Origin: Serripes groenlandicus
Lineage: Eukaryota > Mollusca > Bivalvia > Cardiida > Cardiidae
Assembly (NCBI GenBank): GCA_031761405.1
Contig: JASEVX010000013.1
Location: 43,535,991 to 43,599,990, forward strand
Direction of reading: 5' to 3'
Length of the DNA stretch: 64,000 bases
Below are positions 20,001 to 59,800 of the stretch, in pieces; position 1 is the stretch's first letter; each line of letters opens with the position of its first letter. The translations under genes were made by a program, and so were the position numbers. The notes beneath the pieces were generated by a model that was given only the letters and a program-made list of their open reading frames with translations, searched no databases and was not told where the DNA came from.

Positions 20001-23000
20001 AGTAGTAGTAGTAGACGTAGTAGTAGTAGTTTTAGAAGTAGTAGTAGTAGTAGTTGAGGTACAATTAGTTGTAGTAGAAGTACGAGTATTACAAGATGTA
20101 GAAGTAGTAGAAGTCTTAGGAGTTGTTGTAGTAAAAGTAGTAGTTCTAATAGTAGTAGTAGTAGTAGTAGTAGTAGTAGTAGTAGTAGTAGTAGTAGTAG
20201 TAGTAGTAGTAGTAGTAGTAGTAGTAGTAGTAGTAGTAGTGGTAGTAGTAGTAGTAGAAGTAGTAGTAGTAGTAGAAGTAGTAGTAGTGGTGGTAGTAGT
20301 AGAAGTAGAAGCAGTAGTAGACCAACAGTAGTTAATTCCTGATACGTGTTGTTTTGAAAATTTCTTTTTAGCACTTTTGCGGGCAAGTAGGAGGTCATCT
20401 AGTACATGTGAATGATGCCATAGAAAATAACTTCCTGAGGGACTGGATTACACGTTTAACACGTCAGTATACCAATGATCAGTGAATGCTATAGTTCATT
20501 TACCAAATGCTAAAGTAAAACCCCAACATATCTTTGTAGTTTTGCACGTTAAAAATGGAACGGATATATATATATATATATATATATATATATATATATA
20601 TATATATATATATATTAGCATACCATCTGCTAACTTAAACAATTCACGTTAATGAGCTTCATAACGTTTTTTCGCGGGTATATTACCTTTCAGTTCAAAC
20701 CTTATCTCATTACATGTTCGCATCTTCGCTGCAGTGCAAACGCTCGTGTAACGTATACCGGCTCCTTCACGCAGTTAAGTCACACTCGTAAATATATGAT
20801 GACTGTCTATTGCAGGTCGAATCAGATTGACCTTTGCGTCAACCAATCTAATTGTCGCCTACAATATCGTAATGTATCAGCAGAGTATAACCCATATACA
20901 TACATGCGATAGAGTAGCGGAAATGTGTTATAAGCTACCCTAAATGTCCTACGATTGTTGAATTATAAAGTCAAAGCGTTTAGAAATTGTGCGGTTTTGC
21001 GTAGCTATATAATATCACTGTGTTGACTAATGAAATGATGGTAATACACAGTTACCGCTTTACTTAACATTTCTAAAAATAGCAGATGGATAATTGGCGT
21101 ACAGCGCAGATCTAATCTGGTTTTTCATTTCTCGTTAAGTATCAATGACATAGATATAATTCTTAGTATTTTATGAACAGCGAAAAGCTGGTGGATGGGA
21201 CTGACTGACAGAATTGTTGAGACCAACTACCTCTGGGTAGACTCTGACACAACGCCAGAATTCACAGGTAAAAACTATTTATGTTTTTAAATTAAAAGGG
21301 AACATACAGCACATACGCCACGGCTTGTTTTCATGGCCGTCAGGTACAGATGTTCTGGACCTTGATGGTATGTGTTGCTCAAGGTCAGATGTAACTCTTT
21401 CTAAAATACACAAAAATCTGCAGCAGATGACTACTTGATAAAAATATGGATAATCTCTGTAATTGTAGGTATAATTACTGAAGATAGTGCAAAACAGTGT
21501 GGCAAAAGGAATAACTGCTCATGTTGTGATTAAAATACAAACTGAAATACACCTGTATTGTTTATGGTTTCTTAAATTGATAAAAACAACATGTGTTTGA
21601 CCCTCAAACTGTTCAAATGACCCCTAGAATTTCATGTTCTCTAATTAATTCCCCAAGAAGACTTTAAGGGCGATGTGGTTACATTACTGGTGGTGATTAA
21701 ATATCTATAGAGGCAAATATAGTCTCATGAAATATATAAACCATTGTAGCAGTGAAGTGGCGTAACAAACCATTGTAAAATGAATTTTCGACGACTGAAT
21801 AAATGGTTGATTCACCTACTGTTTGTTGAATATCTTAATTTCGTTTTTCTAAAACTGTGTTGGTGAAGATAACACATATGTTTAATCAGTCGTGCATACT
21901 TTTTGAAAGAGACTTTTGATATCATCGTCTTTCCAGGAAAATAATCAACTGAAGACTATAAACTATACGTTTGGTAAATTTCCCTCCAAGAACAATTAGT
22001 TAATACAATGCAGTGTGCGTATATAATGAAGGTGTGTGTCGCGTTCTTAGAAAAGCGCTAAAATATAGAAAGTATGGCCAAGACGCTATTTCAAATTATG
22101 ATCTATATGGGGCTAATTTAGCTTATTATTTGCGGTGACGCCAGTCTGATTTGTCTCCCAAAAGATCTATCATAATTGTAGGGATTTTCTTATATTGTAT
22201 TTGCCTTGCTAAGGATGGTTTGAGATTTTTGCGAATGCTCAGGATTGACAACTGCTCTAAGAGAAGTTGACGTTGCCTCAGCTGGAACTGTTATATTATC
22301 TGTTACATTATCTGTTAAAAGTGACCGTTAATTTACCTGTATCATTTAGATAAAGGAAATAATTCCCGGGACCCAACTAGCTTCGTCATTTCTTTGCAAA
22401 TAGTCATGTAACACTGAATATTCTTTGAAAATGGAGAATACTGTTTATTAGTTTGTCTTTTACAGACTGGGAACCAGGACAGAAATATGATGCCGCACAT
22501 AAAGTATATCCATGTCTCAATGATTCTTCTTTGAGAATAGAGAACACTATCAATTATTGTGTGTTTATAGCTCGGAATACAGGACAGCAGGATCATGGCA
22601 CCTATTGAGAGTAGTCCTATCCATGTCACACTGAATACTTTTTGAGAAAAGAGAATACTGGTGTTGTGTGTTCATAGATTAAATACCAGGACAGTCCGAT
22701 GATGCCACCACCAATGACGGATAGTCGTGTCTCATGGAAAGTTCTTTGAAGATAGAGAATTCTGAGAGAATTCTGTATATTATTTAGTACTTTACAGACT
22801 AGGGACCAGGATAGCCCGATAGTGCCACCAATGGAGACAATTCATGTCCCATTGATTATTCTTTGAAAATAAAGAAAAATGTTTATTATATGTTATTTTA
22901 CAGACTATGTACTAGGAATAATTCATGTCTCGTTGACTAGTCTTTGAAGCAAAGGAATGTATTTTATGTTTCACAGATTGGATACCAGGACAACGCGATG

Positions 23001-56800: not shown

Positions 56801-59800
56801 TGTGAAAAAGTAGGTAGCAAGTTGTCGAGAATTATGTGTGAAAAAAACTGGTGCGATAATGTCAGGAAATACATGTGAGTCGTTCCACGAGAAAACCAAC
56901 ATTGTGGACTCTGCGTAAAGTATCGACCCGGATCAGCCTAAGCATGCCACACGGGCCTACCTGGACCGACACTGTTCGTATCCTATGGCTTTTCTGTTTC
57001 AGGAATAACTACTGTATACATCTATCCCCCTAAGACGGAATGTGTCGGCCGGATCAGTCTGCGCGGACAGCGCAGGCTGATCTGGTCGATACATTACGCA
57101 GATATATTGATATGAGCCGTTCCGCTAGAAAACCTACATTGCGGACTCTGCGTAAAGTATCGACCCGGAATAGCCTAAGCATGCCGCGTAGGCTAATCCG
57201 GACAGACACTTTTCGCCTCCTGTGAAATTTCTGTTTCGGGAATCATTACTCTGTACCTCTATCCTCCAGAGACTTTTGGAAACTTTGTGGCAAAAGAAGA
57301 AATTGCTCATGATGAGCAATTTCTCCTTTTGCCACAATGTTTTCAACTCCATTCAATAATCAACATTTTTATATTGAGATATTTTAAATTTTGCCTACAT
57401 ATTTTCAAAGTCGTCTGCTGGAAGGAATTGCTGTATGTGGGTAAGGGTTACACTCAAATCTATAAATCTATTTGTATATCAGCAGTATTGTCGACTGCAA
57501 GATTTGCTGTATGTGGTAAAAAGATGAAACTCAAATCTATTAATCAATTTTGTATTTCAGGAATACTGTCGACTTCACGATTTGCTGTATGTGGTAAAGA
57601 GATGAAACTATTAATCAATTTTGTTTTTCAGCAATATTGTCGACTGCAAGATTCTCATTTAGTCCACGTCAACGATGCAACCGAAAATGCTTTCATAAGA
57701 GACTGGCTACAAAGATTTAAACATAAACAAGTTTTTCTACAAATTTCTCTGATGCAGACGACGAAAGAGCCGGTAGTCGAATTTTGAATATATTGTCGGA
57801 AAAGGAGAAATTGCCCAAAACAAGCAAACCAATTCACAGAATTACCGAAGTCTTCACCGTTCTCAGATAATCATTGCTTACCCAGAGGAGCATGATGGTG
57901 CTATGTCGCTCACCTGACTCAATATGTAACTAAGTTTTAACTATATCAATATAAGGAAACATCCCCAACCCACCCTGGCGGCAAAAATTATATGAATATA
58001 ATGGACATAATCCAAGATATATTTGTGCCATATTATTTTCAAATCAGGCCAGTGCATTTAGAAAAGAACATGTTTACAGTTGTTGGTGATTTTCCCTCTT
58101 TCTAATGTCGCAGCGACCAAAGTTCTACATACAATTTAATTATTTGAACATTTTTGAAGGAAGATCACATCTAGTACATTCTTGTACAATTACTTTGAAA
58201 ATGTTTCATTGGTTTAGTAGGGGAAGTTGTGAATGTGCGTATGAAAATGTAAACGACGGACGAGAGGATCAGTATCACGCTATTGCGCTAAGTCAAAAGA
58301 AAATCTGTCATTACACATTTCCGCCAGCTTGTGGTAATATATCCAGACCAATTAACATGGAATGAATGTATCTGGTTGAGGGTCGGTCTACCAGTGAACA
58401 TTTCTACAACAGTATTTGAAAAATCGGCAACACATATTCAGAGGAAAAGATTTTAAAAGGATTAAACTTTAGCCATATACAAAACAGTCATGTTTTTCGA
58501 CCACTCAACATTGCTTGAAGGAATCTCGTAGAGTGTCACCCGAGGAACATTTCTAATAAAAATGGAACTTTGACCTAATACTTTCGGGATTAAAGATGCT
58601 CACTAAAGCGGAGTAAACTTGACTTTTATCCACAATATCTCTCTTGTGAATCAACCAAAAGCTATGTTGTGGGTACTAAAAAGACTTGTCTTACTGAGAT
58701 AAATCATTTTAAGTACCCACAACATATGGTTTTATTGTCAAAGTAGTATTTATATGCTTATAAACCATGTTTGGCAATTTGGCGTAACAGGGTCGCAAAA
58801 GAAAGGCATAGTAGAACAATCCGTAGCACTACAATATCATTTGTCTGAAGTTACATCTTGTTCTATACTAAAATCGTTCGGACAGTTAAGAATCAAATTT
58901 TTCCCATCACAGCAAACAAGTGGTGGTTGGGCCTGACTGATAGTCTAATAGAACAGATTTGGGAATGGGAAGATACAAAGACAGCTCCAACCTTTACAGG
59001 TAATTTCTACAAAACTATCGCTTATTAATTAGAGGACCAGTATGTGCTTTAGTTAGAGGCAAAGAGATATATCTTCATGAATCGAATGTTATTCTATATA
59101 TTCTTTAAATGAACTCTCTGATAAGTACAAGGTTCAAAAGGTCACTTTATTTTAGCCGACGTAGTAATATTTGTCTTCGTAATTACACACAAAAAAAGGT
59201 GTAATGTGGTCGCCATTTAAAGTAACACGCAGTGACTTGTTTTGCAATGGACATTTTTAGTTACTAAATAACGGTAATACTAATGAATAGTATGTATGGG
59301 ACTTTTTAAATTGAGGTGTTTTACTGACAGTATCTACGGAATTATTTCTTTGGTAAATTGCGCGGATGAATATGGTGTTCGCCTAGCCTTGCAAGGAATT
59401 TCCAACTGGGTATTTGAGCAATAACTTGTAAATGTAAAGGACTGTATTGTATACTTTGTTATTTATCCTTTTATTTTCAATATTATCAATATATGCAATA
59501 TATGTCGATATATGTCGATAGTGCACGCAGTAACATTGCACACATTAGTATTGCACCAAGATCCTTTTCGCATGCTGCTACGGACGGAACTAATGTCCAT
59601 ACAGTAACGTTACAGAGCGCCCCATCAACCTTTGATGAGGTCAACGGGAAGTAAATCATTTTCCATAGGCGACCATTATAGCATTATGGGTTATGGTTCG
59701 TTACTAGAAAATGAATTAACACATATACCTATATCAAACTAAAGTTCATTCTTAGAACTACCTAAAAAGCAAAACAAACCCACATGTTCAGCGTTTTTTG

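Follow-up and report, generated by a model that had tools for sequence, protein, structure and literature searches.

What causes exon-intron junctions to multiply in tandem, and whether the resulting rows of splice sites serve the genes that carry them, are questions raised by a cluster of C-type lectin genes in the bivalve Serripes groenlandicus. The stretch of DNA analyzed here (64 kb, hereafter the window) corresponds to positions 43535991-43599990 of its contig, in an assembly of 1.759 Gb, and contains five such genes (CTL1 to CTL5), all on the + strand and each with coding exons 2-5, which were located by a translated search (tblastn) combined with splice signals. The joined exons of CTL3 match the Pfam family Lectin_C at 66.3 bits (cut-off 22.6) and thus encode a C-type lectin domain; no protein relatives of the lectin were found in a large protein set. 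At several exon edges in the cluster, a segment made up of one splice junction and some adjoining exon bases is repeated in tandem beside the exon. These arrays are probably ordinary minisatellites that began with a duplication which chanced to cross an exon edge and were then tolerated.

Anatomy of the junction arrays

The array at the donor of CTL3 exon 4 consists of near-identical units of 25 bp (33/35) or 33 bp (2/35), built on a core of 13 exon and 12 intron bases in which the splice site itself reads TTTACAG/GTATGT (the slash marking the splice junction), or CAG/GTAAGT in two units. Within this array, units 29-33 repeat the order and the variants of units 18-22, and a block of units has therefore been duplicated. 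An exact match search returned 19 perfect copies of the unit in the genome, all of them at its own locus.

In addition to this donor array, acceptors are repeated upstream of CTL3 exon 2, CTL2 exon 5 and CTL5 exon 3. At CTL3 exon 2, the local aligner alone delimits 13 complete upstream copies plus a fragment, which a manual split resolves into 14 units; at CTL2 exon 5, where manual splitting yields nine copies, the aligner recovers seven and Tandem Repeats Finder misses the array. CTL1 exon 5 is preceded by a single decayed copy of the CTL2-type unit, and the duplication may therefore be older than the separation of CTL1 and CTL2. Genome matches to the CTL3 exon 2 unit fall only at its own locus, and those to the CTL1/CTL2 unit only in these two genes; these two units and the exact CTL3 exon 4 unit thus gave no match beyond their own loci, in a DNA search that skips very common words, and this confinement is not that of a dispersed element (an introner or similar). 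At CTL5 exon 3, two extra copies of the acceptor precede the real site by 71 and 149 bp, and the start of the exon (GTCGACTGC; GTCGACTGCAAGATT) resembles the end of an upstream repeated element (GTCGTCTGC; GTCGTCTGCTGGAAGGAATT), the repeated nature of which was judged by eye; the array unit joins both and contains part of the element. The donor of the same exon (57722) is AT, not GT (AAAC/ataaac, compared with AAAC/gtaaga in CTL4), and CTL5 may be damaged or may use another donor site. No junction array was seen in CTL4 when the window was scanned.

These counts bear out four arrays named in a preliminary description of this DNA (nine copies at CTL2 exon 5, 14 at CTL3 exon 2, 35 of 25 bp at CTL3 exon 4 and two at CTL5 exon 3). 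The single 30-bp copy that it placed at the acceptor of CTL3 exon 3 has a score of 23, no higher than ordinary junctions reach, and is thus at chance level, and the number of affected genes, given there as three of five, becomes four of five with the decayed copy in CTL1. The further claim that the arrays arose as independent events holds in so far as the exons, the units and their divergence differ and the three units sought in the genome are confined to their own loci, but it is weakened for the two CTL3 arrays, the units of which (34184-35273 and 39038-39928) have 21 of 26 bases in common around AG/GT. Agreement of the flanks at this level was reached by 6 of 100000 shuffles, for an alignment picked after the fact; the shared bases are in part splice consensus, the exon 4 edge is coding, and a common ancestor of the two units, which their likeness might suggest, is no more than possible.

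The same divergence bears on whether the arrays are real. They are known from one assembly alone, but the variants in their units are distinct and specific to position, and the arrays differ in their mean identity to the consensus, at 79 percent for CTL2 exon 5 and 85 percent for CTL3 exon 2, the two older arrays, compared with near-identity at CTL3 exon 4. Both observations argue against assembly error, which is extremely improbable as the source of the arrays, although their copy number could still be wrong.

Junction arrays in other genes

The occurrence of such arrays outside the cluster was assessed in three samples from the same genome. Other lectins were represented by 25 of the 30 best-match loci outside the window (150 of 508 candidates scored) and five further regions, from which 77 junctions were called automatically; removal of 16 that were duplicates or belonged to overlapping gene copies left 61 junctions from 23 loci, a few of them doubtful. 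The non-lectin genes were the best 30 of 83 myosin-head matches, with 37 edges passing a splice-signal filter, and 22 of 126 kinesin matches, taken in rank order among those without stops, with 30 edges; the edges are approximate in both. A junction was taken to have a strong local copy when a score of at least 34 was reached within 1.5 kb.

By this measure, one of the 61 lectin junctions has a strong copy nearby, namely the exon 3 donor of a lectin on a different contig (L014), where 31 bp are repeated nine times. Two of the 37 myosin edges reach the threshold, as does one of the 30 kinesin edges. In the first myosin (L045), the exon end GPVLE is followed by a donor array in which a 42-bp unit occurs six times without change; the second edge (L064), at a score of 34, lies in a match with internal stops and is doubtful. 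In the kinesin (L074), the acceptor lies in a 41-bp tandem duplication (2.1 copies, 81 percent matches). With the doubtful myosin edge left out, arrays are thus found at 3/128 edges outside the window (95 percent interval 0.5 to 6.7 percent), without difference between lectins and non-lectins (Fisher P 1.0). The expectation that junction arrays would be commoner in the lectin family is accordingly not upheld in these samples, at 1/61 for the other lectins versus 2/67 for the myosin and kinesin edges (3/67 with the doubtful edge). Given similar arrays in unrelated genes, the phenomenon looks like a habit of this genome and not a special lectin device; we read short, junction-seeded arrays as general to this genome, which is crowded with tandem repeats, and long duplications over exon edges as rare in it.

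Some of these loci deserve separate mention. The lectin gene with the exon 3 donor array is itself repeated in tandem with a spacing of 2554 bp (L014, L015, L016 and L020; G000:C113:58.87 Mb), and the array is identical, over 278 bases, in four complete copies of the gene. In the myosin array (L045:1873-2124), the 42-bp unit is in frame and remains open through the five extra units, and alternative donors there would be predicted to insert repeats of 14 residues into the motor domain. By the span of the scan, repeat clusters touch a junction in lectins L014, L024, L041 and L043 and in myosins L045, L048, L065 and L073, of which only L014 and L045 score 34 at the junction within 1.5 kb; L024 and L043 were rejected as junction arrays, their repeats ending short of the junction. 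Another lectin (L039:1256-1574) has an intronic array of six 52-bp units with acceptor-like TTTTCTGTTTCAG, and was likewise set aside since no exon edge could be placed there.

Seeding of arrays at exon edges

Whether the arrays exceed chance depends on the null that is chosen. Strong local copies are found at 4/35 junctions of the window compared with 651/3000 random sites, and coverage thus reveals no enrichment; in fact, nearby copies are dense at random sites in all samples (388/2000 for the other lectins, 416/2000 for the myosins and 168/1000 for the kinesins). Because coverage is inflated by the copies themselves, each array was shrunk to one unit for a second null, under which 5 of the 19 tandem families in the window cross a junction compared with 0.99 expected (P 0.0025; 1.18 expected and P 0.004 by a second formula). 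The excess is also seen inside gene bodies (5/9 families versus 1.08 expected, P 0.0018), and counting T3 and T7 once left the result unchanged, T3 already lying outside that subset. The list of 19 families was condensed manually and excludes microsatellites and distant pairs; with full array spans in place of single units 3.5 crossings are expected (P 0.24). Since the window was picked for the pattern, its P values are optimistic, and the independent samples weigh more.

Also relevant to these figures is the suggestion that tandem duplication is unusually frequent at exon edges, or at those of some gene clusters, which would then be mutational hot spots. The seed excess in the window favors it, as do the pooled samples, in which units of up to 110 bp give seven junction-crossing arrays compared with 2.33 expected from random seeding (P 0.010, CTL1 and CTL2 counted once). 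However, without the window three are observed and 1.96 expected (P 0.31), the pooled count over all unit lengths is seven versus 9.4 expected, and lectins alone give six versus 4.46 (P 0.29; 61 lectin tandem families, condensed by hand). Hot spots are, on this balance, an unlikely explanation.

Usability, reading frame and preservation of the repeated sites

Splice sites were scored with small matrices derived from the same genome (67 acceptors and 55 donors), the window's own sites, including those of CTL3, being among them. On this scale many repeated sites appear usable. At CTL3 exon 4, 32 of the 34 extra donors score at or above the 5th percentile of real donors, and 27/34 do at least as well as the real one; upstream of CTL3 exon 2 and CTL2 exon 5, respectively 10 and 11 AGs pass the acceptor threshold, against a background of 4.35 per kb at other lectin loci.

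Such scores speak for banks of splice sites selected to vary lectin transcripts or proteins, selection for varied transcripts being one of the options raised in the preliminary description. None of the 41 acceptor-like upstream AGs and none of the 34 downstream donor units in the lectin arrays keeps the lectin frame open, however, and in the CTL3 exon 4 and exon 2 arrays the splice dinucleotides are no better kept than neighboring columns. In the exon 2 array, for example, the G of AG is retained in 8/14 copies, and 68/70 columns are at least as conserved. Lacking an in-frame site and any clear extra preservation of the dinucleotides, the arrays make selection for varied lectin proteins unlikely. 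With arrays at only one of 61 junctions in the other sampled lectins and the same arrays in non-lectin genes, a bank selected in the lectins to vary transcripts or proteins is highly improbable, and selection confined to lectins was rejected on the frame test together with the myosin and kinesin controls.

The juxtaposition of AG and GT at the CTL3 exon 4 junction brings a further possibility into view, namely that this array, and perhaps that of exon 2, could be a bank of recursive splice sites in which each unit would act as acceptor and donor at once. In fact, 30 of the 34 extra TTTACAG/GTATGT units pass the acceptor threshold, so that both sides of the juxtaposed AG/GT are plausible, and human cells are reported to splice recursively at distal exon ends (PMC10156609). 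However, AG/GT is also present at the end of exon 4 and the start of exon 2 in paralogs without arrays there, and can hence be put down to the usual coding and splice consensus; moreover, the small matrices include the CTL3 sites themselves, and the myosin array, at -3.1 as an acceptor, does not offer a recursive site. A recursive bank is therefore very unlikely.

A related proposal turns on what splicing would leave behind. Most of the 25-bp CTL3 exon 4 units finish with an acceptor directly followed by a donor. As many of them as lie between two copies would therefore be removable as a GT-AG intron, with an identical exon end and donor remaining, and an array of units that can be erased by splicing could grow without harm to the message. 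Such a self-erasing bank of splice sites is distinctly unlikely to account for this array; were it real, exon-edge arrays of this sort would give introns a way to grow or to be born, perhaps at some 2 percent of the exon edges of this genome.

Origin and persistence of the arrays

According to the minisatellite origin that we consider probable, a segment of about 25-105 bp, comprising a splice site together with bases of the exon, would have been duplicated in tandem, seeded in CTL5 perhaps by the short imperfect repeat common to the start of exon 3 and the end of the adjoining repeated element. The array would then grow by slippage or unequal exchange and by block duplication; that slippage or unequal exchange contributes we infer from the block duplication in CTL3. 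The spare copies would land in the intron, and one intact exon with its own site would remain. It follows from the order of the parts that, whenever one junction is duplicated in tandem, an intact exon and site are left, which would explain why the arrays are tolerated and persist, presumably under near-neutrality. In keeping with this origin, the number of short arrays that cross junctions outside the window agrees with random seeding.

Several observations weigh against this account. The upstream copies of CTL2 keep AG in 9/9 cases, though 26/99 columns are equally kept. The window is richer in arrays than the other samples, at 4/35 versus 3/128 (P 0.039, a comparison chosen after the fact), the figure shifting to P 0.066 when the doubtful edge is counted (4/128), to P 0.012 when CTL1 is added (5/35) and to P 0.058 against the other lectins alone; the 5/19 seed excess points the same way. 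A modest extra load of arrays in this cluster is possible but unproven. Furthermore, over all unit lengths the three junction-crossing arrays outside the window are fewer than the 8.2 expected (P 0.037), a deficit at odds with simple random seeding across the whole range of unit lengths.

Features of the window

The coordinates of the genes and junction arrays are collected in Table 1. Two large arrays lie away from the lectin junctions (12040-13737, 44 bp x 39, and 24400-26609, 81 bp x 27), and the - strand holds an open frame with a reverse transcriptase domain (17907-20447; RVT_1, 106.9 bits), which also spans a trinucleotide repeat. Searches of the window for RNA families and tRNAs found none.

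Table 1. Junction arrays and C-type lectin genes of the window (positions in the window).
Feature	Position	Strand	Description
CTL3 exon 4 donor array	39038..39928	+	35 units, GTCAACTTTACAG (exon side) and GTATGTACTATA (intron side); real exon end is unit 1
CTL3 exon 2 acceptor array	34184..35273	+	14 upstream units of ~70 bp and real acceptor (exon start 35254)
CTL2 exon 5 acceptor array	22405..23275	+	9 diverged upstream copies (manual split), each with intron end and exon start
CTL1 exon 5 upstream copy	5841..5924	+	one decayed copy of CTL2-type acceptor unit, AG lost (local alignment and multiple sequence alignment)
CTL5 exon 3 acceptor array	57452..57653	+	2 upstream acceptors (exon-side bases 57483, 57561) and real one (57632)
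CTL1	2211..6132	+	exons 2 (2211-2317), 3 (3484-3574), 4 (5489-5575), 5 (6005-6132); tblastn and splice signals
CTL2	15281..23796	+	exons 2 (15281-15387), 3 (20372-20462), 4 (21181-21267), 5 (23669-23796)
CTL3	35254..42326	+	exons 2 (35254-35360), 3 (36328-36418), 4 (38964-39050), 5 (42202-42326)
CTL4	47224..49806	+	exons 2 (47224-47330), 3 (47966-48056), 4 (48880-48966), 5 (49682-49806)
CTL5	55120..60934	+	exons 2 (55120-55241), 3 (57632-57722), 4 (58913-58999), 5 (60813-60934)

Comparison with known systems

Intronic minisatellites, or variable number tandem repeats, are made of short tandem units, with block duplication and variable divergence. The arrays described here share these properties, being composed of head-to-tail units of tens of bases, but differ in that their units span a splice junction, each copy thus bringing along a splice site together with exon bases. 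Dscam-type arrays of mutually exclusive exons likewise repeat splice sites inside one gene; in contrast to their whole exons, each copy in the lectin arrays comprises part of an exon and one splice site. No account of minisatellites made of splice sites turned up in searches of the open-access literature directed at them, as judged from the search listings.

Amplified junctions at several exon edges of unrelated genes would make intron growth, decoy splicing and recursive splicing testable by counting and from RNA reads, and, should they be only tolerated noise, they would show the extent of splice-site redundancy that an ordinary gene can bear. Recursive splice sites, or ratchet points, are treated in PMC8605326, and those at distal exon ends in human cells likewise involve AG/GT (PMC10156609). 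The CTL3 exon 4 units resemble them in their juxtaposed AG/GT and in usable scores on both sides, but as putative sites they stand in a tandem array beside an exon and are not lone sites.

Tandem duplication across an exon edge has been proposed as a source of introns, with few proven recent cases, according to PMC4974935, which cites the Rogers 1989 model and the test by Hellsten et al. 2011 and reports a case in potato in which duplication over an intron-exon boundary made a new intron. As in that case, the duplicated segment crosses the boundary, holding intron end, acceptor and exon start, and provides a second set of splice signals. The potato duplication, however, has two copies and a spliced intron proven from RNA, whereas the arrays of the lectin window are known from DNA alone, and in the present genome arrays reach up to 35 copies, include donors as well and occur in several genes.

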